Below are positions 30,573 through 54,227 of a stretch of DNA of 64,000 nt, one piece after another. The position numbers and the translations under genes are program-made. Position 1 is the first letter of the stretch. The number at the start of each line of letters is the position of its first letter. This stretch comes from Streptomyces globisporus (lineage in GTDB: Bacteria > Actinomycetota > Actinomycetes > Streptomycetales > Streptomycetaceae): contig BMTG01000004.1 of NCBI GenBank assembly GCA_014649555.1, positions 372,001-436,000 of the forward strand, given 5' to 3'. The notes under the pieces were generated by a model, which saw only the letters and a program-made list of their open reading frames with translations, was not told the DNA's origin and did not search any database.

Positions 30573-31982
30573 ATGTTCCAGAACGCCGACGAAGTGCAGA
30601 AGTACGTCGCGGACAACGACGTCAAGTTCATCGATGTCCGGTTCTGCGACCTGCCCGGGGTGATGCAGCACTTCACGATCCCGGCAGCGACCTTCGACCC
30701 GGCCGAGGAACTGGCCTTCGACGGTTCGTCGATCCGCGGCTTCCAGGCCATCCACGAGTCGGACATGGCGCTGCGCGCGGACCTGTCGACGGCTCGGGTG
30801 GACCCCTTCCGCCGCGACAAGACGATCAACATCAACTTCTTCATCCACGACCCGATCACGGGCGAGCAGTACAGCCGTGACCCGCGCAACATCGCCAAGA
30901 AGGCCGAGGCCTACCTCGCCTCGACCGGCATCGCGGACACCGCGTACTTCGGCCCGGAGGCCGAGTTCTACGTCTTCGACAACGTCCGCTTCCAGACGTC
31001 GGCGAACGAGAGCTTCTACCACATCGACTCCGAGGCCGGCGCCTGGAACACCGGTGCGGTCGAGAACAACCGCGGTTACAAGGTCCGCTACAAGGGCGGC
31101 TACTTCCCGGCCCCGCCGGTGGACCACTTCGCCGACCTGCGGGCCGAGATCTCCCTGGAGCTGGACAAGAACGGCCTCCAGGTCGAGCGCCAGCACCACG
31201 AGGTCGGCACGGCCGGCCAGGCGGAGATCAACTACAAGTTCAACACGCTGCTGGCCGCGGCCGACGACCTGATGCTCTTCAAGTACATCGTGAAGAACGT
31301 CGCCTGGCGCAACGGCAAGACCGCGACCTTCATGCCGAAGCCGATCTTCGGCGACAACGGCTCGGGCATGCACGTGCACCAGTCGCTGTGGCAGGGCGGC
31401 TCGCCGCTCTTCTACGACGAGCAGGGTTACGCCGGCCTCTCGGACACCGCCCGCTACTACATCGGCGGCATCCTGAAGCACGCCCCGTCGCTGCTGGCCT
31501 TCACCAACCCGACGGTGAACTCCTACCACCGCCTGGTCCCCGGCTTCGAGGCCCCGGTCAACATGGTGTACTCGCAGCGGAACCGTTCCGCCGCGATGCG
31601 CATCCCGATCACCGGCTCGAACCCGAAGGCCAAGCGCGTCGAGTTCCGCGCCCCGGACCCGTCGTCCAACCCGTACCTCGCGTTCTCCGCGCTGCTGATG
31701 GCGGGCCTGGACGGCGTGAAGAACAAGATCGAGCCGGCCGAGCCGATCGACAAGGACCTCTACGAGCTGGCTCCCGAGGAGCACGCCAACGTCCAGCAGG
31801 TCCCGACGTCCCTCCCGGCCGTGCTCGACGCCCTGGAGGCGGACAACGAGTACCTCCAGGCGGGCGGCGTCTTCACGTCCGACCTGATCGAGACCTGGAT
31901 CGACTACAAGCGCACGAACGAGATCGCCCCGATCCAGCTGCGGCCGCACCCGCACGAGTTTGAGCTTTACTTCGACATCTAG
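30573..31982 (+). CDS. glnA: Glutamine synthetase type I
   Basis: 469 residues from an ATG with GGAGGAGGAGG upstream. Full-length GSI-beta with [47 protein letters not shown] and [10 protein letters not shown]. The adenylylation tyrosine is in [10 protein letters not shown] near residue 396. Transcription is probably controlled by GlnR. The last four codons (F-D-I-stop) are part of a 15-bp att core: a mobile element is integrated here, and the stop region and everything downstream come from the element. Confidence 0.97.
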
Positions 31983-31984
31983 GA
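31970..31984. mobile_element. attL: 15-bp att core at the 3' end of glnA
   Basis: CTTCGACATCTAGGA, identical to 52282-52296 on the same strand. It covers the last glnA codons and the stop, so integration preserves GlnA. The integrase gene ends 100 bp away, the usual int-att arrangement. Confidence 0.88.
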
Positions 31985-32083: not shown

Positions 32084-33352
32084 TCACACCGCGACGGGCA
32101 CCGCACCGTCGTCGCCGTCGTCCTCGGCGGCCGGGCCGAACGCCGCGTCGATGGCCTTGCGCGCTCGGTCCTGGCTGTTGGGCATGAGGTGGGTGTACGT
32201 CCGGAGCGTGAAGCCTGGGTCCGAGTGTCCGAGGTACTCGGAGAGAGCCCGGATGTTCTCCCCTGCGTCGAGGAGAACCGACGCGTAGTAGTGCCGAAGC
32301 GCGTGCATACCGTGCTCTCGCGACTGCTTGAACCTCTCCCCCGGCAGACGATCCGGGATGACGCCGGCGGAGACGAGGGCAGGCTTCCAGAGGTACATGT
32401 TGGAGTAGTTCCGGTTCAGCGCCTTGCGTTCGCGAGAGTAGAACAGCAGCGTCGCCGTGACGGGCGGCCCATCGGGCGTCTTCCACGGGAGTGTGACCTC
32501 GATGGGCGGGCGCTGAGTGATGTGCCGGGCCAAGGCGTGGGCGACTACTTCCGGCAAGGGCACCTCCCTCAGCTTTCCGCCCTTGGGTGGGGCGAATACG
32601 AGGTGAGATCCCACCATCTTGACCTGTCGGACGACGTGAACGGTTCCTCCGAGGAAGTCGACTTCGTCGACGGCCAACCCGAAGACCTCCCCTTGCCTCA
32701 AGCCGCATCCGGCACCGACATCGACGATCGCCTTGTATTGCTGCGGAAGCCCTTCCCTGACGGCGAGGACCCGCTCACGGGTCCAGGGCTTGAGCTTCCT
32801 GGCGTCGAGCTTCGGGGCACGAACTGACCCAGCCCGGCAGGGGTTCCGGGCGATGATCCCGTCGTCCACGGCCGCGGCGAAGACAGCGGAGACATTCGCG
32901 AAGATGACGCGCTGGTAAGAGGACGCAAGGCCCGCTTCTTGGAGGCCCCGGGCCCACGTGCGGATGTGCCCAGGCTGAAAGGCGGACATGGAGCGGGAAC
33001 CGATGTACGGGTTGGCATGGAGCCGGAACCTCAGCTCCATTGCCGCGATGGTGGACACGTCGGTCGTCTGCGACGCGAGCCACGTCGTGGCGAACTGCTG
33101 GAAGGTGACCCTGCCTTCGCTCGGATCGACGTACTGGCCGCGTGCCATGTCGGCGGCAAGCTGCGTCAACCATGTCTCCGCGAGCCGCTTTTGCTTGTCG
33201 GGGAAGCTCTTGGACTTCTCGGTGCCGTCGGGGCCGATGTACCGGGCGCGGTAGCGGAGTCCGGAGCCGTATCGGTCACTCTTGACCCGGCGGGGCTTCC
33301 CGGCGGGCCCGGTTTCGGTTTTGTACCAGCGGTCTTGGATGTGGCCGGCCAA
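32084..33352 (-). CDS. int: Tyrosine recombinase (site-specific integrase)
   Basis: 422 residues from a TTG at 33352 with AGGAG six bases upstream. That start gives the N-terminus (M)-A-G-H-I-Q-D-R-W-Y typical of AICE integrases; longer frames run into the xis gene. N-terminal arm-binding AP2-like region (~1-70), SAM-like core-binding domain (~75-165), then the catalytic domain with R219 (C-G-L-R-Q-G-E), H350-x-x-R353 (H-A-L-R-H-Y) and Y386 (L-R-T-Y-T-H). All catalytic residues are present, so it should be active. It lies next to attL and follows xis. Confidence 0.93.
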   Translation of the reverse strand: MAGHIQDRWYKTETGPAGKPRRVKSDRYGSGLRYRARYIGPDGTEKSKSFPDKQKRLAETWLTQLAADMARGQYVDPSEGRVTFQQFATTWLASQTTDVSTIAAMELRFRLHANPYIGSRSMSAFQPGHIRTWARGLQEAGLASSYQRVIFANVSAVFAAAVDDGIIARNPCRAGSVRAPKLDARKLKPWTRERVLAVREGLPQQYKAIVDVGAGCGLRQGEVFGLAVDEVDFLGGTVHVVRQVKMVGSHLVFAPPKGGKLREVPLPEVVAHALARHITQRPPIEVTLPWKTPDGPPVTATLLFYSRERKALNRNYSNMYLWKPALVSAGVIPDRLPGERFKQSREHGMHALRHYYASVLLDAGENIRALSEYLGHSDPGFTLRTYTHLMPNSQDRARKAIDAAFGPAAEDDGDDGAVPVAV

Positions 33353-33376
33353 GGGGTGCTCCTGTTGGGTACGCGG

Positions 33377-33409
33377 CAGGGGCACGACCTGGTGGTGGTC
33401 GTGCCCCTG
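33377..33409. terminator. Hairpin between xis and int
   Basis: A perfect 13-bp stem (33377-33389 with 33397-33409), 7-nt loop, in the xis-int gap and just ahead of the int Shine-Dalgarno. It could terminate or attenuate read-through from xis into int, or block int translation. Confidence 0.65.
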
Positions 33410-33428
33410 CGGGTGGTCGTGATGTAGG

Positions 33429-33662
33429 TCAGGCCGCTTCGCGCTCGGACAGGCTGCTGATCCATGCGTGCACGGCGGCGGGGTCGTAGCGGAGGTGCTT
33501 GCCGACGCGGAAGCCGGGCGGGCCAGTGCGCTTCTTGCGCCAGGCGTAGACGGTTTCGAGCGGGACGGAGAGCAGGGTGGTGAGGTCTTCGGGAGTGAGG
33601 TAGCGGTCGGGAAGCCCGCGCCGGAGCGTGGACCGGGGGTCTCTGGTAGCCGTCGCAGCCAC
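33429..33662 (-). CDS. xis: Excisionase / AlpA-like DNA-binding protein
   Basis: 77 residues from the GTG at 33662, with GGAG five bases upstream. A MerR/HTH_17-type winged helix: Y-L-T-P-E-D-L-T-T-L-L-S-V-P-L-E-T-V-Y-A-W-R-K, then G-P-P-G-F-R-V-G-K-H-L-R-Y-D-P-A-A-V-H-A-W-I. This is the standard Xis of AICEs, directing integrase toward excision. The region upstream is filled with TGCGTCA/TGACGCA repeats that may include its promoter. Confidence 0.9.
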   Translation of the reverse strand: MAATATRDPRSTLRRGLPDRYLTPEDLTTLLSVPLETVYAWRKKRTGPPGFRVGKHLRYDPAAVHAWISSLSEREAA

Positions 33663-33754
33663 TGCATCTCCTTGGATGTGGGAGGGGGCCCGGCGCTCTG
33701 TGGCCTTCGTCGTTGTCTGGCGAGGTGGCCGCGCCTGTCCTAGGTGTGGATTTC

Positions 33755-35614: not shown

Positions 35615-36490
35615 TCACAGTCCCAACCGGGTGAGGGCATTGGCCCAGGCGTCCGTGCAGTGCCGGGGGCTTTCGCCCTTGGCCTGCGCGGCGGCGAACA
35701 GCCGCGCCATGTGGGTCTCGGTGAGGCAGCCGCACCGGCCGTGCGCGGACAGCACGGCGAGGAAGGTCCGGTAGACGGTCGCGTGCACCGCGCTGTTTGC
35801 CCCGGTGATGCGCTGCTCAGCCATGGCGATGCCGCGGTCCAGATAGGCGGGGGCCCGGTGAGGGCAGTCCCCGTCTCCGATCGGGGCGGGCACCGTGACG
35901 GTGCGCGGCGCGGACCGGACCGGCGACGGTTCCTTGACGATCAGGGCGCGTACGGCGTCGGGGAGGTCGGTCATGGTGCCGGTACCGGGACCGAGCCACC
36001 GGGCGTAGACCATCGTGGACTTGATGTCGACGCCGTCGCGGACCGCGTTTGCGGAGAGCATGGCCCCGCGGTAGATCCAGTGCTCGCCCCGTGTGGTCGG
36101 CACGGTCCGCGTGGCGGGGAGCTCCCGGCGGGCCCACGCGACCGCGTCGGCGTGGTCCAGGTCGACCACGGTCAGCCCGATCCCGCCGGGGTGGTAAGCC
36201 ACAGCCGCCGCTAGCTTCCACGCCGGCGCCCATGCGGGCCCGGTGAGGGTTCCGGAATCGGTGATAGCGGCGGCCCACGCGTGGCAGGGGCGGGGGCAGT
36301 CGCAGGGGCCAGGAGCCTTCATGTTCGGCCGCCCGCCACAGGCGTTGTCACGGCACGCGGGGCAGTTCCCGAAGGGGACCTTTCCCGCTCGCAGAGGCAG
36401 CACCGGTACACCGGCCGCGGCGAGCACCAGGGCGGTGTGGAGGTGGGTACCGCGGTCCTGATCTCGCTGGATGGTGGTGGGTTGAGTCAT
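35615..36490 (-). CDS. Bifunctional DNA primase/polymerase (Prim-Pol)
   Basis: 291 residues. N-terminal A-L-V-L-A-A-A-G-V-P-V-L-P-L-R-A-G-K, then a Cys-rich stretch (C-P-A-C, C-G-G, C-D-C, C-H) that may bind zinc, then the Prim-Pol core with V-V-D-L-D-H-A-D-A (metal-binding Asp pair) and T-T-R-G-E-H-W-I-Y-R-G. Prim-Pol is one of the known AICE replication initiator types, alongside RepSA and RepAM. Its stop overlaps the start of the ATPase gene. Confidence 0.88.
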   Translation of the reverse strand: MTQPTTIQRDQDRGTHLHTALVLAAAGVPVLPLRAGKVPFGNCPACRDNACGGRPNMKAPGPCDCPRPCHAWAAAITDSGTLTGPAWAPAWKLAAAVAYHPGGIGLTVVDLDHADAVAWARRELPATRTVPTTRGEHWIYRGAMLSANAVRDGVDIKSTMVYARWLGPGTGTMTDLPDAVRALIVKEPSPVRSAPRTVTVPAPIGDGDCPHRAPAYLDRGIAMAEQRITGANSAVHATVYRTFLAVLSAHGRCGCLTETHMARLFAAAQAKGESPRHCTDAWANALTRLGL

Positions 36491-38457: not shown

Positions 38458-40710
38458 TCAGCTCGCGTCTCGCTTCCCGTCACGCTCCGCAATCTTGTTG
38501 GTGAGGTGGGCGCGGGTGAATCCGGTGCGGTTGACGGTCTTGCCGTTGATGCGGCGCCCGACCTGGCCGGTGCTGATCCCGTACGGCTTGAGCAGCGTGG
38601 TCAGGTGTGCGGCCCGTTCGGCGGGCTCCATGTCCGCCCAGGGGCCGTAGGTGTCGGGGCGGAGTTCGGCGAGGCGGTCGACGGTCACGTCGTTCCACGG
38701 CCGCGGTTCCTTCTCCGGTGTCACCGCGAGGATGTCCCTCAGCAGGTCGAAGGAGGGGGCGGTGTTGGTGTCGGGTGTCTCTCCGAGGGCGTAGCCGGTG
38801 AGCCTGCCGGCGGCTTCGCGCTGTTTGCGGGCGCGGGCGGCGATGAGGTCGGCGCCGGGGCCGTCGATGTAGGTGGCGGCGACGATCCGAGCGTCGCTGC
38901 CTTCGCCGATGAAGTAGTGGATGCCCTTGTCGCCCCAGGCGAACATGGTGGCCCGGATGCCCCGCTTGTAGGCGGAGGTCCCCAGGACCATGTCATTCTC
39001 GGTCTGGCCCATGACCTTCAGGCACCACCGGGCCGACGCGTTCGCGCTGATGCCGGTGGGCAACGACTTCGCGTCCGGGCGCTGCGTCGCGGCCAGGAAC
39101 ACGATCCCGGTGGCCGGGCCGCGCTTGACGAGGTCGGTGGCGATCTCCTCGAACTCCCCGCCGTGCTTGGGGTGCTCGAACAGCACCTGGCACTCATCGA
39201 CCGCGATCACGATCGGATGCAGGCCCAGCGACCGCTTGTCCGCCAAGGCGCTGGTCACCTTGTTCTCAGGGCAGATGTCCCGCGGCAGCGACCGGATGAC
39301 CTTCACCCTCCTGCGCAGCTCCTCGCGCAGCGCGCGCCAGTCGGCCAGGGCGTAGTCGATGCTCTCGTCGTCGTCCCCGGCCGCGTGCCGGTGGGAGACC
39401 GCGGAGCCGACGGGGTCGAGGTCGCCGGTGCCCTTCATGTCGTAGGTGTGCAGCTCCGCCCGCGGGTCCAACGCTGCGATCAGCAAGAGCAGGCGGAGCA
39501 GGAACGTCTTGCCCATGCGGGGGATGGCCCCGATGACTCCGGCGATGTACATCAGGGTGATGTCGACCCAGCGTCCGCGCTGGTCGGTGCCGTAGGCGAT
39601 GGGGTTGAACAGGTCGACCGTTCCGGACGTCAGCAGCGGCCACTTGGGCTTCTTCGCTGTGGACATGTCCTGATCCCCGACCCAGAGCACGAGGCGGCCG
39701 GTGTGTTCGTCGGGGACGGCTTCGGGCCAGACGCAGCCGAGGGGGCGGCGCAGGCCGGAGGCGAGCTTGTCCCGCTTGTCGATGACATCGGTGACGGTGA
39801 CGCCGTAGGGGAGGTCGCCCTCCGCCCGCCACCCGGGGCCGTCCCGGGTGATCGGGGCGGTGAACGTGAACCCGTCCCGCCCCTTGCTCTGCGCCTGACT
39901 GATCGCCGAGATCCCGAGCGCACCGAGCGCGCGGAGGACGATGTCGGAGGTGAGCTTAGGCGCTTTGGTCATCTCGACCGCGCGGGTGATGACGGGGGCA
40001 TCCGCCTGTGTGCCGGCCGACCCCAGAGCCATCAACAGGGCACCGATGGAGAGGGCCTGGAGCCATCCGGGGGCCAGGACGTAGATGGCGAGCGCCACAC
40101 CGATCCCGACGAACAGGGCCAGCGTCGCCACCAGCGTCCGCAGTCGGACGCGGCCGTCGCGCTGCCGGGACAGCTTGAGGTACTCGCCCGCGTCCTCGCG
40201 CCGCACGGCCGCAAGACGGACGGGTTCGCCCTCGCGGTCGGCCACCCACCGCATGCTCCCGCCGACGAACTTCGCTGCCCCGGCCGGGGCCTGGAAGGTG
40301 AGGCGGGCAGCGTAGTAGGGGGAGCGCAGGGCGTGGTACCCGACCAGGTGACCGTAGTGCCCGACCGCCCACTTCGTGGCGGTCGAGAACTCGGCGGCCG
40401 ACCGCAGCCACGCGGGGACAATCGCCCGACGCTTGGCCACCACGATCCGGCCCATGAAACCCGGCCCGGCTTCGGCCGGTCCGTCGACCATCACCCGTGC
40501 ACTTGGGTCGGCCGACTCCCCACCCGACTCACGGCCCGACCGGTCGGGCATGGAATCGGGCGACCGGTCGGGGGCCGGGTCGGCCGACTCGGCGCGGGCG
40601 GACCGGGCCTTGTCGAGGTCGACCACGTCCCCACCCGGGTCGGATTCGGTAGGGGTGTTCATGTCGGCTTCGAGTCGGTTGAAGAGTTCGCTTTCGTCGT
40701 CGTGATTCAC
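38458..40710 (-). CDS. FtsK/SpoIIIE-family conjugal DNA translocase (TraSA-like)
   Basis: 750 residues from the GTG at 40710. Residues ~1-85 are acidic and disordered. One or two membrane helices follow near ~200-245. The ATPase domain has Walker A A-I-P-R-M-G-K(401)-T-F and Walker B V-I-A-V-D505-E506-C-Q, then F-L-A-A-T-Q-R-P-D. The C-terminal ~90 residues include a winged-helix-like end (I-S-T-G-Q-V-G-R-R-I-N-G-K), as in gamma-type DNA-reading domains. One such protein is enough for AICE transfer of double-stranded DNA. Confidence 0.92.
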   Translation of the reverse strand: MNHDDESELFNRLEADMNTPTESDPGGDVVDLDKARSARAESADPAPDRSPDSMPDRSGRESGGESADPSARVMVDGPAEAGPGFMGRIVVAKRRAIVPAWLRSAAEFSTATKWAVGHYGHLVGYHALRSPYYAARLTFQAPAGAAKFVGGSMRWVADREGEPVRLAAVRREDAGEYLKLSRQRDGRVRLRTLVATLALFVGIGVALAIYVLAPGWLQALSIGALLMALGSAGTQADAPVITRAVEMTKAPKLTSDIVLRALGALGISAISQAQSKGRDGFTFTAPITRDGPGWRAEGDLPYGVTVTDVIDKRDKLASGLRRPLGCVWPEAVPDEHTGRLVLWVGDQDMSTAKKPKWPLLTSGTVDLFNPIAYGTDQRGRWVDITLMYIAGVIGAIPRMGKTFLLRLLLLIAALDPRAELHTYDMKGTGDLDPVGSAVSHRHAAGDDDESIDYALADWRALREELRRRVKVIRSLPRDICPENKVTSALADKRSLGLHPIVIAVDECQVLFEHPKHGGEFEEIATDLVKRGPATGIVFLAATQRPDAKSLPTGISANASARWCLKVMGQTENDMVLGTSAYKRGIRATMFAWGDKGIHYFIGEGSDARIVAATYIDGPGADLIAARARKQREAAGRLTGYALGETPDTNTAPSFDLLRDILAVTPEKEPRPWNDVTVDRLAELRPDTYGPWADMEPAERAAHLTTLLKPYGISTGQVGRRINGKTVNRTGFTRAHLTNKIAERDGKRDAS

Positions 40711-40874
40711 TGACGGTCCTTCCGTACTGGAGGGGTTGGCGGAGCCCGGCCGCAGCTTTGGACGGTCGTGGCCGGGCTCCGCGTGAACAGGCACCGTAGA
40801 GGCGTCAGCACGCCAGAAGGGGGACAGTTCGTCCCCCTGTCCCGGACTGTCCGCCTCTCCCCGGCGGGCGGGAT

Positions 40875-41204
40875 CTACAGATCGAACAGGCCGCCCTGCT
40901 CGGCGGCCGGTTCGGCGTGGTGGTGCACGGTGCGCTGGGCGGCGGTGAAGCAGCCGGGGCACCAGGCGCGCAGCCGGTTGGCCGGGAGGGCGGCGGCCTC
41001 GCGCTCGGTGAGGGCCGGGTCGGCGGCTGCGGCCATGAGCCGGACGGGCCCGCCGTGCTTGCCCGCGTAGGAGTCGTGCTCACGGGGGCAGCGGCCAGCG
41101 GTCTTGGCGTGGGGCTGGCCGCACTGCCCGATGCACTGGCACCGACCGCCGGCCGCCGCCATCACGGTGCGGAACAGGTCTGCCGCGACGATCGGTTCGG
41201 ACAT
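40875..41204 (-). CDS. Small Cys/His-rich protein, HNH-like
   Basis: 109 residues from the ATG at 41204. It contains C-Q-C-I-G-Q-C-G-Q-P-H, C-P-R-E-H and later W-C-P-G-C-F-T-A, two zinc-ligand clusters arranged as in short HNH or zinc-ribbon proteins. A canonical catalytic H-N-H triad is not clear. Its start overlaps the stop of the C5 methyltransferase gene by 1 nt, so the two are translationally coupled. Function unknown; see the finding on the pair. Confidence 0.7.
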   Translation of the reverse strand: MSEPIVAADLFRTVMAAAGGRCQCIGQCGQPHAKTAGRCPREHDSYAGKHGGPVRLMAAAADPALTEREAAALPANRLRAWCPGCFTAAQRTVHHHAEPAAEQGGLFDL

Positions 41205-44680: not shown

Positions 44681-45547
44681 ATGACCTTCACCCCCGGACC
44701 ACTGGACCCGGACGACGACCGGCCGCCGTACGAGCAGGTGGCGAGCAGTCTGAGTGCCGCTATCAGGACCCGAAAGTTGGGCCCCGGCGACAAGATCCCG
44801 TCTCAGAAGGAACTGACGGAGGCGTACGGATTCGCCCGCGCAACGATTCAACGCGCTCTCCGCGAGCTCGAAGACGAGGGGCTGATCGTCTCTCGTAAGG
44901 GAAGCGGCGTGTACGTGCGCAACCGCACCGAACGGCCGGCAGGCCTTCGGCCCTATGTGGAGCAAGCCTTTGCCAGCCAGAACGTATCGATTGACTTTGC
45001 AGGCTTCTCTAGCGAGACGCTCCACGGGGCCCTTCAGGAGCCGATTGACAAGATCCGTGTAGGGCGTCTGACTCCGTCCACGATCAATATCCGCATCCTG
45101 GTGCCGGACATGTCAGTAGTGCAGGCCGCCCCTGTCCGGCGCGAGGACGGTAGCGACGACCCCCGGCTTCGGGCTCGCATGCACGACATGATGGTGGGCT
45201 TCACTCGGAGCATCGCCAACACGATGCACGAACTGAGCGTGCTCGGGTTGGTGAGCGAAGCAAAAGTCAGCGTGAGGGTCCACAGCGGCACGCAATTCTT
45301 CAAGCTGTACGTGATCAACCAGGACGACGCCTTCTTTGGGTACTACCCGATCCGGCCCAACAAGGTGGTCACACAAGGAGAAGTAATAGAGATCTATGAC
45401 TTCGTCGGGGCGGACGCCGCGTTGTTCCACTACTCGATGAACGAGGGGGAGTCGTCCAGCGGTGCTCAGCAAGTAGGCCAGGCACGCATGTGGTTCGACA
45501 GCGTATGGGAGACCATTGGGAGGGATTTTGACCCGGATGGAAAGTAG
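44681..45547 (+). CDS. GntR-family regulator, KorSA-like
   Basis: 288 residues. N-terminal GntR winged helix (~15-85): P-P-Y-E-Q-V-A-S-S-L, G-D-K-I-P-S-Q-K-E-L-T-E-A-Y-G-F-A-R-A-T-I-Q-R-A-L-R-E-L and G-S-G-V-Y-V-R. The C-terminal ~190 residues are not an obvious UTRA domain and contain M-H-D-M-M-V-G-F-T-R-S-I-A-N-T-M. By position and family it is the master repressor of the element's transfer functions. The operator candidates directly upstream suggest autoregulation. The HAD gene overlaps its 3' end. Confidence 0.85.
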   Translation: MTFTPGPLDPDDDRPPYEQVASSLSAAIRTRKLGPGDKIPSQKELTEAYGFARATIQRALRELEDEGLIVSRKGSGVYVRNRTERPAGLRPYVEQAFASQNVSIDFAGFSSETLHGALQEPIDKIRVGRLTPSTINIRILVPDMSVVQAAPVRREDGSDDPRLRARMHDMMVGFTRSIANTMHELSVLGLVSEAKVSVRVHSGTQFFKLYVINQDDAFFGYYPIRPNKVVTQGEVIEIYDFVGADAALFHYSMNEGESSSGAQQVGQARMWFDSVWETIGRDFDPDGK

Positions 45548-46319: not shown

Positions 46320-47678
46320 ATGGACAAGGAGCTCCAAGCCCTGATTTCGGGAACAGTCGGATTCTTCTGGCCGGTCTCGGCAGACGGAAAGTTCGACCAG
46401 GAGCCGGAGAGGGGATACATCAGTAGGGTCAAATCTAGGAGACTCGAAATTCGCACCCTAAATGAGGACCCTAACAGCAGTCTTATTTTCGCACACCAGA
46501 GGGAAAGGCCTCACGCCATTGTGAGCACCTTTCCGGAAGGCAGTGCGGTTATCTTGAATGTCACCCGGAACGGAGGAACTACAAGCATCGGAGGGCGTCG
46601 CGCTTCTGCCTTTGAGTATGAAGCCCGGACGCTGATCACGAGGTTTCCAGTCGAGGAGCTGGCCGGAAAGAGTGTAAACGTTCGGGTCAAGGAGTTGAGT
46701 GCTCACTTCCCCGGCATTTCACAGTGGGCTGGACTCAAGGTGTCTGAGGTCAAGCGCGAGCATAAGCCAAATGGTCGAGCAAGGGCAGCTACCGTTCATT
46801 TGAGGGCTCCGGAAGAGATCGTGGCAGATCTTGGTTCCCTGACCCTCGTAATTGGAGGGCATTGGGAAGTTGACGAAAATCAGGACAGATCTCTGGTCTA
46901 TGCCCCTGTGTCGATTGGAGTTAAAGCAAAACGTGCACGCGATGTGAGCGAGATGATTACAGTACTTAATCGAGTTCAAGACCTCGTTAACGTTGCCCAC
47001 GACTCATTCATGGCCGTGGACGGTGGCCGCGCTGTCTTGGGTGCGGAACGCAGTCCAGCACAGTACCCAAGATTTTGGAACAGTTCCCTAATGGAAGGAC
47101 CACTTAGTCACGATAGAGGAAAACGCAAGACGGGGTTCCCTCTATTCACGCTGGCTGATCTTAATGGCGCCACCGGAGTCAGTAGATGGGTTCGACTTTA
47201 CGACGAATACCCCAGTGCATTCACTGCGGTCGCTTCACCCTATCGGCTGGGCGGCATGTCGTGGCACAGCTACCTTCGGGACACTGCCGTGGGGATAGAG
47301 AGGCTAATTGCCGCTACCAAGAAAAAGGGTAGGCCAGCCTGGACTAATGAACGGCCACAGAGCTTCGCTCTAGCGAAAAGGGTCGGCTCCCCCTTTGCTG
47401 AGTTCGTAGGCGATGAACGTGCATGGGCAGGCCTATTTTGGGGTGCCTACAACGGTGGGAAGCACCAAGCAAGCTACGACCCTGATGCCCGCGATCTGGC
47501 AACGCTTGCCTTGTCGGGCAATCTACTTCTCACGGCCTACTTGCTTCAGCGTTGCGGAATGCCCAAGGATGCATTGCATCGCTTCTTCAATAGGAATGTG
47601 GGATATCAACTGCGTGACAGGGTGCGCAACCTGATTCAAAACCCCCCTCAAACCATTAAGCCTGTGACGTCGTACTAG
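46320..47678 (+). CDS. ApeA-like protein with C-terminal HEPN-like domain (candidate anti-phage)
   Basis: 452 residues from an ATG with AGGAG upstream. The beta-rich N-terminal ~300 residues (G-T-V-G-F-F-W-P-V, F-P-E-G-S-A-V-I-L-N-V-T) resemble ApeA N-terminal domain 1. The helical C-terminal ~140 residues look like a HEPN domain, ending A-Y-N378-G-G-K-H382-Q and L-L-L-T-A-Y-L-L-Q-R-C-G. The standard HEPN R-x4-6-H is not clear (nearest Arg is R367), so nuclease activity is uncertain. ApeA is a known single-gene phage defence protein of the HEPN class. Base composition is clearly lower in G+C than the backbone, suggesting separate acquisition. Confidence 0.65.
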   Translation: MDKELQALISGTVGFFWPVSADGKFDQEPERGYISRVKSRRLEIRTLNEDPNSSLIFAHQRERPHAIVSTFPEGSAVILNVTRNGGTTSIGGRRASAFEYEARTLITRFPVEELAGKSVNVRVKELSAHFPGISQWAGLKVSEVKREHKPNGRARAATVHLRAPEEIVADLGSLTLVIGGHWEVDENQDRSLVYAPVSIGVKAKRARDVSEMITVLNRVQDLVNVAHDSFMAVDGGRAVLGAERSPAQYPRFWNSSLMEGPLSHDRGKRKTGFPLFTLADLNGATGVSRWVRLYDEYPSAFTAVASPYRLGGMSWHSYLRDTAVGIERLIAATKKKGRPAWTNERPQSFALAKRVGSPFAEFVGDERAWAGLFWGAYNGGKHQASYDPDARDLATLALSGNLLLTAYLLQRCGMPKDALHRFFNRNVGYQLRDRVRNLIQNPPQTIKPVTSY

Positions 47679-47894: not shown

Positions 47895-48740
47895 TTAAAT
47901 GACTTCGTTCTGGCCCTGCTGAGGTTGGTCAAGCTGCTGCTCACGCATACGCTGTTCACTGCGTATCCCCTCAACCGTAGTGGCAAACGATTCGAGATTC
48001 GCCTTGTCGTCAGCCTGATCATATGGTGAAATCCCCAGTTCGATCGCTGTTATATGCTGCTCCATGCTGTCGGCGGTTTGCTGAAGGTTGAAAGCTCGTT
48101 CACGTGGTTTAAAATAGCCGGCCGCAGCAGTAATCACCGTAACCGTGAACCCCAGAGCAATGAGAACCCCCTTTGCAGGTTGAGGAGGGTCGAACCAAGC
48201 GGTGACCGCAGAAATTGCGGCAGAGCTAACGAAGAGCACCCACTGCAAGAAGAGATGTACGCGTCGATAGTAGCGGGATTCATTGCGAAGCCGGGCTACC
48301 TCACCTGGCATGCGTTCCTTATATGAAGCCTGTCGGTCCAGAGCGGGGGGTGTAAGTTTTCTAGCTTCCAGGATTCGACGTTCCTCAGCCAGTTCAAGGT
48401 CGAGCTTAAGTTTCCTTACGGGAGTTCTAGAGTCCTTCCATGGACTATCTTCAACGAACTCCGCTGCAAATTGGGCAACGGTGGCAACTCCCAGAAAGAA
48501 GAGGAATCCCGTGAGCGCGTTATCGATCGCATTCGGTATAGCGGATTCCAGCCAAAATGAAACCTTGAGACCCGTCCATCCAAGGATTAGGAGAACCAAA
48601 GAAATTGGGGTGCCGTAGAGTCCGAAAACTTGCAGCCGACGGTTCTTAATTCGCTGCTTCAGGTCGGCAATATCGCGGCGATACCTAATTAACGCATCGG
48701 TGGTCGCCCTACTGCTAGGTGTTGTCGCCGGTTGTGGCAT
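47895..48740 (-). CDS. DUF4231/SLATT-like membrane protein (candidate effector)
   Basis: 281 residues. Four hydrophobic segments in two pairs (~38-60 and ~75-92, then ~165-183 and ~190-208). A charged helical middle (L-D-L-E-L-A-E-E-R-R-I-L-E-A-R-K) and a Gln-rich helical C-terminus complete it. The second pair with R-Y-Y-R-R-V-H before it and F-N-L-Q-Q-T-A-D-S-M-E-Q-H after it resembles SLATT/DUF4231 two-TM effectors, known from conflict systems with SMODS or SLOG partners. No such partner is adjacent. Lower G+C than the element backbone. Confidence 0.6.
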   Translation of the reverse strand: MPQPATTPSSRATTDALIRYRRDIADLKQRIKNRRLQVFGLYGTPISLVLLILGWTGLKVSFWLESAIPNAIDNALTGFLFFLGVATVAQFAAEFVEDSPWKDSRTPVRKLKLDLELAEERRILEARKLTPPALDRQASYKERMPGEVARLRNESRYYRRVHLFLQWVLFVSSAAISAVTAWFDPPQPAKGVLIALGFTVTVITAAAGYFKPRERAFNLQQTADSMEQHITAIELGISPYDQADDKANLESFATTVEGIRSEQRMREQQLDQPQQGQNEVI

Positions 48741-49387
48741 TAGTGTGTTGTCCCTTCAGGGCTGCGATTGAGAGGCACCGGGGGCCGAAGACGCCATCCA
48801 CCCCGTGCCACGCGGCAGACCGTCAGCACCCTTACCACGGTGACCAGTTGACCCTACCCAGCAGCGACGTAGGGGCGATCCTCTTTCACGCTCTCAACTG
48901 GTCTGCGGCCTTGAAGGCGAATCACTTGACGTCGAGGGCCGTCGTGGGGTCGTCTGAGAACAACCAGAAACGATCAGTACCGACAACCGACGCCAGCTGC
49001 CGAGCAGGTCATCGAGCTGGTCCTGCCGAAACCGCCGGGTCAACGGGGCCGCACGTAACTTCCTCTCCAGCTTCTTTGAGAGCCGCGTGTAGCTACCTCA
49101 GCACCATAGACGGATCCCCGACGTACGTTCTGTCTAGGCTTCGTCCGTCTCATTCGCTGCCGCTTGTTGGGGGGGCCGGCAAGTTCGACCCCTACTGCCG
49201 CACCAGTGTGCGTACGGCGAACGTCGGTGAGTAAAGGCCTGTCGTGGGCCATACGCGGGCCAAGTGGGCACCCCGTAATGGCGCCTCGGGCGTAGGCCCA
49301 GGTCAACGCTCTACAGGTTGGCTAGGCCGACCGGTCTTGAAAGCCGTTCCTGATCGCTGTCATAGACAAAGGTCTACGCTGCGGTGC
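48741..49387. other. Gene-poor stretch in the cargo arm
   Basis: 647 bp between divergent genes. Open frames here (for example 48719-49234 on +) have no recognisable domain and poor codon bias. It may hold promoters or decayed DNA; I see no RNA gene or repeat. Confidence 0.5.
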
Positions 49388-50065
49388 GTGGATGATCAGA
49401 CGTACGACGATGCCTACCGCGGTTGGCGAGCATCGCTGACGACCCTGCTGGCTGATCCTGCACTGCTTGCGCGGTGGCAGGAGCGCCGCTTCCAGTTCGC
49501 TCACCGTGTCGGAGCCCTCCTGACCCAAGCGCACGAAGACAGCCCTGCCGTCACAGGGCCCGTCCTCTACGGGGTGTTCGCCGCCGGTGCAGGCCTTTGC
49601 TACGTAGGACAGACCCAGGAGGCCGAACGCCGTCTGCGGGACCTGCCAGTGGGCGAGAGCCACCACCTGGCCAACACGGTGCCACCCGAACTCTGGGAGA
49701 GGGTGGTGGTAATCCGCTGGCCACTGCTGCTTCCCGAAGCACCCGCAAACGAACACTCGCTGGCCGAGGAAATGGGCCCAACTGTCTGCGGCCTCGCACT
49801 GGAACACACCCTACAGGTGGCAACCGCCCCGCCAATTAACAGCCGCCGGCGACGTACATCCGGCGACTGGCAACCGCGGAACCTCGCACAGAGTCGCTCT
49901 CGTGGTGCAATCCACGCGCAATCCGTGCCGGGTCTGACCCAACTGACTCTTGCTGCTTGGTCAGCCCTCTCAGAGGCGGCGATACCGCAGCACTCAGCGG
50001 TCGTCGACACCGGGACCGGCCGAGCGGTGTCCCCGACAGCACTGCATCGGCCACCTGGTGCATGA
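49388..50065 (+). CDS. GIY-YIG-like nuclease domain protein
   Basis: 225 residues from the GTG at 49388. The N-terminal ~60 residues are helical. The middle (~65-130) has V-L-Y-G-V-F-A-A-G-A-G-L-C-Y-V-G-Q-T-Q-E-A-E-R-R-L-R-D, a GIY-YIG pattern (G-V-F in place of G-I-Y, then Y-V-G) with the conserved Arg. Then W-E-R-V-V-V-I-R-W-P and E-H-S-L-A-E, which could give the catalytic Glu. The C-terminus is basic (R-R-R-R-T) and low in complexity. It lies in the cargo arm between two candidate defence genes. Activity and target are unknown. Confidence 0.62.
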   Translation: MDDQTYDDAYRGWRASLTTLLADPALLARWQERRFQFAHRVGALLTQAHEDSPAVTGPVLYGVFAAGAGLCYVGQTQEAERRLRDLPVGESHHLANTVPPELWERVVVIRWPLLLPEAPANEHSLAEEMGPTVCGLALEHTLQVATAPPINSRRRRTSGDWQPRNLAQSRSRGAIHAQSVPGLTQLTLAAWSALSEAAIPQHSAVVDTGTGRAVSPTALHRPPGA

Positions 50066-50349: not shown

Positions 50350-51600
50350 TTACGGCAATACCCGGGGCACCCTTTCAATGATTTCCTCAAGTCGCTTAGA
50401 GGCGCTGGCGAGGTGGCCTGGGGACGGCATGTTTCGCCCGTGCACTACGTTGTTACGCAGCCCTCGCAGCAAATCGATATCATGACGCGTTTCCGCGTCC
50501 AGTGACGGTAGACGGTCGAGCACCCGGGAAATCGGCAGAACGATTCGACGGCTCTCTTCTTTTGGTAGGAGATTCCGCAAAAGTCCCTCCAGCTCTACCC
50601 ATCGCGTAAGGAAACGGCCGATTTCCTGATGCATTCGTGAGCTCAGAGAGTGGGGATCAAGCGCGTCTGCTTCTGCGCCATCAATCCGAACCAGATTGAA
50701 GCGCTCATACCGCGAAGGATCCTCGGCAAGGAGAGCATCGATAACCTGCTCCGACAGCGGACGTCTCTCGACATTATCGTGAAGTGATTCCAGATACGGA
50801 TCCAGTTCGGCAGGCGCCTCCTTTTTTAGCTCTCTCAAGAAGTTGAAAAGGAGGTCGACTCGACCTAGGCCCGAGTCTCCGACCGGTTCATTCAGGATCC
50901 TCTCCGCTTGGTTCAATAGATATGCGGCGAGTTCGTAGTGATTGCGGAATCGGCCGCTTCGGGCCACTCGATTTTCGCTCGCCTCTTGCAGCATCCTGAG
51001 TGACATCTCGCCAGCGATAACCAGTCCATTGAGCTGATCCAAGATCTTCTTTTCCGCATCGGACAAGTCGCCGGATAGCGGCTTGTAAGCGAGATCGTGT
51101 TCCACTTCCGACCATGCATGCATAAGCACCGAGGCGACCTGCACCTCGACACGCGCCTTGGCGTATCGCGCATCCGGGCCGATTAGCTCACGTTCCTTGA
51201 GTCTAACTCGATAGTGAGTTGCGGAATATCCGGAAAACTCCTTTTCGGTAGACCTCCTGTTCGACTCGGGGAAACTCTTTTTCTCCGCGATGTCAAATAG
51301 GCGATTTACAGCCTTTTCGACTTGGTCTTGCTCTGCTGGAAAATAGAGTGCAATGCGGACGCCTGCCAGGTCGACGATATCTTCGTAGATATCCTCTACC
51401 GTCTTGTATTTCTTTTTTGGTGCACGCTTACGGCACTTCTCTTCTAGGCGCGTGATGTCCTTCGCTCGGTAAGTGACGATGCAGCGGACGCCTGATTCAT
51501 TGAGATCCCTCTCTAGGGCTTGGGTGACTAGTTGTGCTGCCTTGCCGTAAAAGTCGTACTCCTTCGAGTAGCGTGCAATGAATTGATCAACGATTTCCAT
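50350..51600 (-). CDS. RelA/SpoT alarmone-synthetase domain fused to a C-terminal HEPN-like domain
   Basis: 416 residues from the ATG at 51600, with GAGGGAG upstream. Residues ~30-175 are a complete RelA/SpoT synthetase: R45-x-K47 with R51-L-E-E-K, D77-L-A-G-V-R-I, G124-Y-S-A-T-H129 and E152-V-Q154 followed by H161-A-W-S-E165-V-E-H168. No HD hydrolase, TGS or ACT domain is present, so it is not a housekeeping Rel. Residues ~180-290 are helical. The C-terminal ~90 residues end with R382-N-N-V-V-H387-G, the canonical HEPN RNase motif R-x4-H. It may be a stress or anti-phage effector like toxic small alarmone synthetases. Low G+C cargo gene. Confidence 0.82.
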   Translation of the reverse strand: MEIVDQFIARYSKEYDFYGKAAQLVTQALERDLNESGVRCIVTYRAKDITRLEEKCRKRAPKKKYKTVEDIYEDIVDLAGVRIALYFPAEQDQVEKAVNRLFDIAEKKSFPESNRRSTEKEFSGYSATHYRVRLKERELIGPDARYAKARVEVQVASVLMHAWSEVEHDLAYKPLSGDLSDAEKKILDQLNGLVIAGEMSLRMLQEASENRVARSGRFRNHYELAAYLLNQAERILNEPVGDSGLGRVDLLFNFLRELKKEAPAELDPYLESLHDNVERRPLSEQVIDALLAEDPSRYERFNLVRIDGAEADALDPHSLSSRMHQEIGRFLTRWVELEGLLRNLLPKEESRRIVLPISRVLDRLPSLDAETRHDIDLLRGLRNNVVHGRNMPSPGHLASASKRLEEIIERVPRVLP

Positions 51601-52281
51601 GGCTCCCTCAAGGTGCAGTGCTGGGCGCTCCGGCCCTGTGTCCACGTGTATGCGTAGGATGCCGCAAAGCGGTGCTTGCGTGGGGGGGAATCGTCCACAA
51701 GTGCTTCAGCCCGGCTACTTCGCCAGTTCCAGGCGGAGTCCACACCCAGCGGCTTCGAGGTGAAGAGGCCGCCCAGTAGGGGGTTCGGGGCAGCGCAGTC
51801 CGGCTGTGGGCCATCCACGTGCCCGGCGAAGCAGACGAGCACCGCTGACGACGCAGCTGGCTGACGTTCGTCGTCCTGTTCTTTGTTCAGTTCGCTGGTG
51901 CCCGCGCAGGTTCATCGTCGTACGCCGGACCCTGGCTGAGCTGCCGAACGACCGCACATGGACGCTCCTGAACAGCCACTCGCACAGTTGGGAAGCGTGT
52001 TGGGTGCGTAGGCGAAAGGCAGTCAGCCGACCATCAGTCATGTGCGAGCCAGGCCATACCCCCTGGGGGTGTGCTCCGGACGTAAGCGCGGGTAGCACTC
52101 AAGGATATCGGCGTGGCATAGCCGCCGTCCTTATGATCACCATGGCTGAGGACCTGGGCCGTCCCTGGGCCGTCAGGAGTCAACCAACAGCGTCCAGCGA
52201 TGACCAATGCCCACCACTCCCTCGCAGGTCATGGGCATCGCCTGGGCGAGAGGCCGAGGTGACGATGAGGCAGCATCAGTT
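51601..52281. other. Gene-poor right end of the element
   Basis: 681 bp between the RelA-HEPN gene and attR. It contains the promoter of that gene and a 23-bp candidate arm-type integrase site (52152-52174). Open frames (such as 51806-52294 on +) have no recognisable domain. Confidence 0.55.
52152..52174 (+). promoter_or_regulatory. Candidate arm-type integrase site, attR side
   Basis: ACCTGGGCCGTC, 3 bp, GGGCCGTC: 21 of 23 positions match 32014-32036 in the same orientation. It lies 107 bp inside the right att core. Likely bound by the N-terminal domain of the integrase. Confidence 0.55.
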
Positions 52282-52296
52282 CTTCGACATCTAGGA
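52282..52296. mobile_element. attR: 15-bp att core
   Basis: CTTCGACATCTAGGA, identical to the glnA 3' end at 31970-31984. To its right the sequence is chromosomal and begins with what looks like the native glnA terminator. Confidence 0.88.
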
Positions 52297-53335: not shown

Positions 53336-54227
53336 CTATGCCGCCCGATCGGGAGTCCTGAGCACTTCCGTCAGGGCGGAGATGCTGTGTTCGCCGTGGC
53401 CGGCGTCGACCGCTCGCCGCAGCAGGTCGTGAAACCCCTTGTGCCACTCGGCGTCGAGGTTCGCTTCCTTGCCGAGTTCCTCGTCGTGGGCGGAGCCGGC
53501 CAAGAACAGGTTCACCGAGGACGCCGGATCGCTGTAGTCGCCGCTGTCGATCTCCTGGGCGAAGACGGGCAGGATCGAGTTGACCATCTCGAACCACTTG
53601 ACGCTGAACCGCACCATGGAGGCGGCCTCCAGGCCGCGCGCCTGCAGGGCCGCCGCGCCCTGGAAGAAGCCGACGAGTGCGGGCAGCAGGGTGCCGCCCA
53701 CTGCCATCTCGTACAGGGCGGAGAGGTCAGGGTCCGCGCCGAGGTAGACGGTGTCGCCGCCCATCACCCGGAGGGTCGGGGTGAATTCGTCGAAGACCGA
53801 GCGATCCCCGCTGTAGTAGAGGAGCGTGCTCTCGGCCCCCACCGCGGACGGCACATTCTTGATCGCTCCGTCCAGGTAACGGGCTCCCTGCCCGTCCGCC
53901 CAGGCCGCCATCTCGCGGGCCCCGGCGGGGCGACCCGCTGTTCAGGGTCACCAGGGCACGGCCGTCGAGGGCGGCAGCCGCCGGTCCGAGTGCTGCGAGG
54001 GTGTCGTCGTACGTGGTCAGGCAGGTGATGACCAGCCCGCTTGCCGCGACCGCCTCGTCCGTCGAGCGGGCGTGCACGGCCCCCTTGGCCACCAGCGGTG
54101 CGGCCTTCGACGGGGTTCTGTTCCATACGGTGACCGCGTGCCCGGCGTCGACGAACGCTTCGGCCAGTGCGCTGCCCATCGAGCCCAGCCCGACGACGGT
54201 CACGGGAGTCCGGTGGTGCCCTGTCAT
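53336..54227 (-). pseudogene. NAD(P)-dependent imine-reductase-like oxidoreductase, frameshifted
   Basis: The N-terminal part (start ATG 54227) has the Rossmann motif V-V-G-L-G-S-M-G-S-A-L-A and W-N-R-T, reaching L-V-T-L-N-S-G near 53940. The C-terminal part continues in another frame from R-E-M-A-A-W-A-D to a stop at 53336, with the 6-phosphogluconate-dehydrogenase/imine-reductase-like helical domain (F-S-V-K-W-F-E-M-V, D-A-E-W-H-K-G-F-H-D-L). Removing one base from the GGGG run at 53927-53930 restores a single ~296-residue protein. Either a recent +1 frameshift or a sequencing error. Divergent from the HxlR regulator that probably controls it. Confidence 0.82.

Follow-up and report, generated by a model that had tools for sequence, protein, structure and literature searches.

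Analysis of a 64-kb stretch of Streptomyces DNA (hereafter the window) revealed a gene whose predicted product joins an N-terminal RelA/SpoT-type alarmone synthetase domain to a HEPN-like C-terminal domain. In the reading that we prefer, to which we assign a probability of roughly 0.45, this protein is a stand-alone, active synthetase coupled in cis to an RNA-cutting HEPN domain. The gene and its parts are located as follows.

50350..51600, minus strand: RelA/SpoT synthetase-HEPN fusion gene, 416 aa (from the ORF, Pfam and homologues)
51001..51600, minus strand: synthetase domain, residues 1-200 (Pfam RelA_SpoT; 11 residues intact in 82/82 homologues)
50701..51000, minus strand: middle region, residues 201-300 (also present in the TPR-tailed relative L066)
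50353..50700, minus strand: HEPN-like C-terminal domain, residues 301-416 (Pfam HEPN families, HHalign, PDB profile search)
50587..50601, minus strand: W334-x3-E338, a strongly conserved stretch of the C-terminal domain (W334 in 43/43 and E338 in 40/43 representatives)
50440..50457, minus strand: R382-N-N-V-V-H387 motif (R382 in 42/43, N383 in 37/43 and H387 in 40/43 representatives)

The open reading frame (50350-51645, minus strand) encodes 431 aa when read from a GTG codon, and 416 aa when read from the ATG at 51600, which is where the aligned homologues start. Residues 45-173 of the 416-aa protein matched the Pfam family RelA_SpoT (E=6.6e-14, over the cut-off), as did all 74 family members scanned in full length; beyond RelA_SpoT, no Pfam family exceeded its cut-off in the single 416-aa protein, C-terminus included. 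The synthetase-site residues are R45, K47, K55, D77, R82, G124-Y125, H129, E152, Q154 and H161, and the intact synthetase domain claimed by the original prediction (R45, K47, D77, H129, E152 and H161) is indeed present at these positions. The motifs R-x-K...K, D-x2-G-x-R, G-Y-x3-H and E-x-Q, which comprise the donor and acceptor site residues, are all found in the fusion, and these residues were matched by eye to R64, K66, K74 and Y128 of FaRel2 (numbering from PMC11782079). Small alarmone synthetases are the nearest solved structures by sequence, and the residues with which they bind the ATP donor and acceptor base are kept in the N-terminal domain. RelA_SpoT was matched three times in the source genome (150, 68 and 55 bits), the 55-bit match being the fusion gene. 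Matches to NCBIfam and PHROG were confined to the synthetase part, with the exception of one PHROG match at E 0.38. The PADLOC candidate PDC-S33, a name not found in the literature searched, gave a weak match (E=2.4e-7) to residues 21-164, i.e. to the synthetase domain only, and none to the C-terminal half of the 416-aa protein.

The C-terminal domain likely belongs to the HEPN superfamily, because of its matches to Pfam families, its HHalign alignment with HepT and the HEPN toxins recovered from the PDB. A Pfam scan of 60 isolated C-termini (E up to 1) yielded matches to HepT-like in 20, DUF4145 in 20, RiboL-PSP-HEPN in 16, Cthe2314-HEPN in 13 and HepT-like_2 in 12 (best E 5.9e-5); any non-HEPN family among the 25 of 38 families listed was matched by at most five. 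When the 74 members were scanned in full length, HepT-like was matched in 30, DUF4145 in 13 and the unrelated SPEF2_D5 in 12, the last lying inside the synthetase wherever a position was given. Ten members were examined singly: HEPN matches, C-terminal and below the curated cut-offs, were observed in five (L044, L047, L062, L065 and L072) and were absent from the others (L020, L030, L036, L040 and L077). In the HMM search proposed with the original prediction, the C-termini of many homologues matched HEPN families weakly; that of the window protein did so only at E 0.21 as an isolated piece, and not at all in the full-length protein.

When the C-terminal profile was aligned by HHalign to seven HepT proteins, the score was 27.6 (P 1.6e-4, probability 49.9) across a 30-column stretch at the motif; the 34 controls, made up of 30 column shuffles plus four other pairs of profiles, scored no higher than 18.8. 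The match is favoured by the exclusion beforehand of four Paenibacillus HepT proteins with Q for the motif H. The seven were drawn from 14 extracted HEPN-family proteins (11 HepT and three DUF4145, after exclusion of three further short matches), and the three DUF4145 proteins were also excluded from the comparison set. HepT was found in nine of 30 genomes behind loci (14 matches) and in none of 60 genomes of the window's order, where DUF4145 was found in three of 60. A PDB search with the C-terminal profile returned 11 weak matches, of which the best was a designed filament (E 0.0028); the HEPN toxins 7ae9 (second, E 0.048), aligned at the R-x4-H motif, and 6m6w (E 1.2) were also recovered.

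The R-x4-H string alone was ruled out as evidence for a HEPN domain, as shuffling residues 300-416 20000 times produced RxxxxH in 53% of cases (R[NDH]xxxH in 9%). The motif gains weight because it is conserved among the homologues. R382 was retained as R in 84, N383 as N in 79 and H387 as H in 82 of 86 aligned rows. Once three rows whose frames are interrupted and the single TPR-tailed row had been removed, the 11 synthetase residues were kept in all of the remaining 82 rows, and R382 and H387 together in 78. The original prediction had proposed a search for homologues keeping both domains; both sites are kept in these 78 rows, and R382-N-N-V-V-H387, located exactly where it had been described, is a conserved HEPN-type site. 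Poor conservation of R382 and H387 had been named beforehand as speaking against the claim; the two residues were found in 42 and 40, respectively, of the 43 representatives left at <70% identity, and this check did not refute it. The exceptions among the 82 rows are L056, L080 and L098, with Y for H387, and L060, with N for R382, and the synthetase is kept in all four. The three rows with tyrosine form a small Bacillota clade, in which HEPN catalysis has likely been lost and the synthetase retained.

The C-termini of the 43 representatives display a mean identity of 22%, yet R382, N383, H387, W334 and E338 are near-constant. The residue following the motif arginine is N in 37 and D in three of these sequences; in the HEPN superfamily this position is described as polar, mostly N, D or H (PMC3710099). 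The same source describes a second, acidic motif, Ex3[KR], in many HEPN families, of which E338 is present in 40/43 representatives and R at +4 in only 18/43. In the HEPN part, dN was lower than dS in seven of eight close pairs, i.e. those with a computable dS (Nei-Gojobori; several dS values are near saturation), with dN 0.24 and dS 1.27 for the window gene and L005. In all eight pairs dN was higher in the HEPN part than in the synthetase.

Some relatives carry other C-termini. L066 has the same synthetase and middle region, followed by TPR repeats in place of the HEPN domain, and 17 of the 23 IMG/VR loci carrying the synthetase have other tails, some of them with the middle region. The pattern R[NDHRST]xxxH after residue 228 was absent from L066 and from these 17 loci, and present in all six of the 23 that match near full length. 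Because the motif is absent where the synthetase has another C-terminus, the HEPN domain is an attached module and not a generic companion of the synthetase. The IMG/VR loci L106-L110, L122 and L111-L121 are viral synthetase relatives with other C-termini; some of the contigs of L106-L122 are 150-456 kb long and may represent large phages.

With an eight-row alignment as query, 84,980 species (one genome each) were scanned, and the best 80 of the 118 relatives recovered were retained. These 80, some of which are metagenome bins, are distributed among Actinomycetota, Bacillota, Pseudomonadota, Bacteroidota, Acidobacteriota, Myxococcota and Latescibacterota. Full-length homologues were identified in seven of the 394 genomes of the window's family (source genome included), in one of 29 matching plasmid records (Azospirillum, 43%) and in none of three matching annotated phage records. 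The tree is mostly grouped by phylum, with nine label changes against a least possible six, which reflects an old family, perhaps with some transfer, although changes beyond the minimum do not prove transfer. All 13 genomes of the genus to which G453 (the genome of the Eisenbergiella tayi locus) belongs carry the fusion (75-100% identity), with one full-length copy per genome and an internal stop in one of the 13. The gene is located there, by eye, near endonuclease III-like and ABC-type ATPase-like genes. The presence of the fusion in every genome of this clostridial genus argues against a simple toxin and fits better with a regulated cellular enzyme.

The HEPN domain is probably RNA-directed. 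According to our preferred reading, it would bind and cut RNA via R382 and H387, and together with the middle region it would sit in cis at the place where other RelA/SpoT proteins have an antitoxin or a ribosome-sensing tail. Cutting or binding of RNA would be coupled to pyrophosphate transfer within one molecule, and the triggered protein would curb translation. A serious, if somewhat doubtful, alternative is that the HEPN domain does not need to cut, and acts as an RNA- or ribosome-binding sensor and dimeriser, likened to the C-terminal region of long RelA/Rel enzymes, that switches a synthetase making an ordinary alarmone product. The 13/13 presence described above is consistent with such a role, as are the synthetase residues, which are never lost (those of the HEPN site are lost in 4/82 rows), and the relatives with differing C-terminal parts (TPR or other tails). 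Moreover, the arginine and histidine are non-catalytic in one HEPN toxin, from Legionella, in which the R98A and H103A changes had a negligible effect, so that an R-x4-H site need not be catalytic (PMC11586414), and single-stranded RNA has been reported to inhibit the synthetase of RelZ (PMC7591505). However, the constancy of R-N-x3-H in 43 diverged representatives appears to exceed what RNA binding alone would require.

An integrative element of ~20 kb, whose ends are marked by copies of a 15-bp direct repeat at positions 31970 and 52282, adjoins the 3' end of glnA and contains the fusion gene. The following features were recognized.

31970..31984: putative left attachment repeat, at the 3' end of the glutamine synthetase gene (30573-31982, plus strand)
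32084..33667, minus strand: tyrosine integrase of the element (Pfam Phage_integrase, E=9.8e-17)
35615..36490, minus strand: Prim-Pol replication protein of the element (Pfam Prim-Pol, E=5.9e-6)
38458..40962, minus strand: P-loop protein, resembling TraB/FtsK by eye only (unmatched in Pfam at E 0.1)
44681..45547, plus strand: GntR-family regulator of the element (Pfam GntR, E=4.3e-19)
46320..47678, plus strand: ApeA-like cargo gene (ApeA_NTD1, E=2.5e-11; HEPN_Apea, E=5.6e-5, 24.0 bits, cut-off 24.4)
47895..48740, minus strand: DUF4231/SLATT-like membrane protein, cargo (Pfam DUF4231, E=8.2e-7)
52282..52296: putative right attachment repeat, direct repeat copy

A cytosine-methylase-like gene and a HAD protein are also carried. 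The integrase, the att repeats and Prim-Pol, features of actinomycete integrative and conjugative elements, are all present, the att ends being putative. The mobile-element location claimed earlier is thus supported, in that the 15-bp repeats bracket a tyrosine integrase and a Prim-Pol gene. The insertion is at the 3' end of a glutamine synthetase gene and not at a tRNA gene; ARAGORN detected no tRNA gene in the 64-kb window. Around the expected HEPN motif the ApeA-like gene reads, by eye, YNGGKH; the position five residues ahead of the histidine is not an arginine, and the RNase site of this gene may therefore be degenerate or shifted. An ORF at 49244-50065 (plus strand) contains a GIY-YIG-like stretch (VLYGVFAAGAGLCYVGQT) recognized by eye, with no Pfam match. 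Two overlapping ORFs at 53336-54227 (minus strand) look, by eye, as if a frame change had split a single NAD-binding dehydrogenase.

The glnA region of G398 shows 97% DNA identity, and ~245 bp after it comes the homologue of the window from 54826 onwards, so that an element-free site exists; this genome is also without the 2.5 kb to the right of the right repeat, and the exact ends of the element rest on the repeat. Beside glnA in G399 (L129), where no integrase match was seen nearby, lies a sequence resembling the outermost ~90 bp (87 bp) of the element at its left end; it is perhaps a carried or native terminator. No match spanning both joined flanks was found in 41 genomes. The Streptomyces homologues L123 and L124 (78%) share with the window the gene, ~100-140 bp upstream of it and short pieces, and encode, ~8 kb away, an integrase 57-58% identical to that of the window. 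An attachment site shared with these nearest relatives was ruled out, as neither has a glnA match. In the 50% Streptomyces group (L007-L010, L021-L023, L125 and L126) the gene is near a glutamine-synthetase-like gene 30% identical to the window's; the glnA site was ruled out here too, this neighbour being a different gene.

The gene surroundings were compared by clustering ORFs of at least 50 aa within 6 kb of 86 gene positions, some of which are near-copies. Four or more non-redundant loci shared each of 32 neighbour clusters, nearly all of which reflect Lachnospiraceae synteny, one with a Paenibacillus locus added. Three clusters, comprising 10, 5 and 4 loci, include more than one lineage; their distance from the gene varies, ranging in the largest cluster from 0.6 to 5.5 kb, and none has a fixed place. 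No partner gene recurring at a fixed place outside the clostridia was found among the 86 gene positions. The earlier claim that no antitoxin is adjacent is consistent with this analysis, which revealed no antitoxin candidate among the recurrent neighbours and is blind to ORFs of <50 aa and to partners specific for, or varying between, lineages. A PADLOC scan of 111 of 159 chosen neighbour ORFs (of ~100-950 aa) from 31 of 32 chosen loci gave scattered matches, with mad3, mad8, AbiLi, AriA, ATPase-Toprim, HEC-02A and PDC-M25A in two members each among the 25 of 151 families listed; we claim no enrichment from these counts.

Since the pairing of the two domains recurs in several phyla and is located here on a mobile element, a self-contained stress or anti-phage switch is possible. 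The Streptomyces copy is integrative-element cargo, with an anti-phage role as its likeliest use, and in the Eisenbergiella lineage the protein, encoded by a core gene, is likely a regulated stress enzyme. Of the original prediction, the joining of a synthetase to a HEPN-type domain is well supported by sequence, but this support does not extend to the two-warhead, self-control and phage-triggering roles.

Carriage by a mobile element also fits a CapRel-like fused toxin-antitoxin, which we regard as unlikely, in which the synthetase would be the sole toxin, pyrophosphorylating tRNA or nucleotides, and the C-terminus would block it until a phage protein is sensed. The gene stands alone (no partner recurs at a constant position outside the clostridia), its C-terminal region evolves faster than the synthetase, and relatives have other C-termini, all of which is consistent with such a protein. 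A mere sensor, however, has no reason for keeping an RNase-type site, and the PDB profile search with the whole family (E up to 5) yielded eight sequences whose names are all GTP pyrophosphokinase, CapRel and FaRel2 not occurring among them. YxxY anywhere after residue 190 was found in 56/82 rows, and is uninformative with respect to a CapRel-type domain.

We consider it improbable that the pyrophosphotransferase shares its RNA target with an active HEPN RNase, the two forming a one-gene translation shut-off. One domain would then cut or tag the 3' end of a tRNA and the other would make the damage irreversible, and the switch would serve as an anti-phage tool of mobile elements and as a core stress enzyme in gut clostridia. 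That both domains might act on tRNA 3' ends is a guess by analogy with toxSAS, which pyrophosphorylate tRNA CCA ends (PMC11782079), and with HEPN toxins, which have been implicated in tRNA digestion (PMC11586414). It is very unlikely that the toxin is the HEPN domain, restrained by the synthetase through modification in cis as HepT is by MNT, for although the HEPN profile resembles HepT and the RelA/SpoT domain has been placed in the same broad superfamily as the pol-beta-type nucleotidyltransferases (PMC5512222), tyrosine at H+2 was observed in 0/82 rows (one with a gap), and HEPN domains fused to MNT are typically without the catalytic residues (PMC3710099) that are kept here.

No description of a synthetase-HEPN fusion was found in the literature searched, mostly at listing level, and we do not claim that it is unpublished. 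The main text of the HEPN survey PMC3710099 contains no mention of SpoT, ppGpp or alarmone; the string "rela" is matched 44 times, always as part of ordinary words in the 12 places, of 35, that were displayed. RelA/SpoT domains are described in conflict proteins, this fusion not being among those in the relevant parts of PMC7159879 and PMC5512222. If our preferred reading of a synthetase coupled to an RNA-cutting domain is true, the family, found across several phyla, would represent a second, unrelated joining of an alarmone synthetase to a ribonuclease-type domain; it would also bring together in one polypeptide toxSAS and HEPN, two well-known translation-directed weapons of bacterial immunity. 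With a gene that stands alone and is core in one genus, the question of toxin or regulator is directly testable.

RelQ and RelP are single-domain small alarmone synthetases. Among solved structures they are nearest to the synthetase domain in sequence, and they differ from the fusion in having no HEPN part. The HepT/MntA system (HEPN/MNT, type VII) resembles it in possessing a HEPN domain with R-x4-H and a partner enzyme of the pol-beta superfamily; however, it consists of two genes, whereas here the partner is a fused RelA/SpoT synthetase. In that system MNT modifies the tyrosine two residues after the histidine of the HEPN toxin (PMC11586414), and this acceptor tyrosine of RX4HXY is missing from the fusion family, which speaks against control of the HepT/MntA type. 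CapRel, found on prophages, is likewise a single gene with an N-terminal synthetase and an extra C-terminal domain (PMC9712102, PMC11782079, PMC10440598). Its C-terminus is a pseudo-zinc-finger domain that inhibits the synthetase and senses phage (PMC9712102, PMC11782079), in contrast to the HEPN-like C-terminus with an RNase-type site described here. A further counterpart is RelZ (MS_RHII-RSD) of Mycobacterium smegmatis, in which a ribonuclease-type domain and a small alarmone synthetase are also united in one polypeptide (PMC7591505). The RNase domain of RelZ is an RNase HII, which was detected neither in the window protein nor among the 25 of 56 families listed for the 74 members, and it is placed at the N-terminus, whereas the fusion family has its HEPN-type domain at the C-terminus and extends over several phyla. 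RelZ shows that a single chain carrying both an RNase and a synthetase can act in a stress response (PMC7591505).
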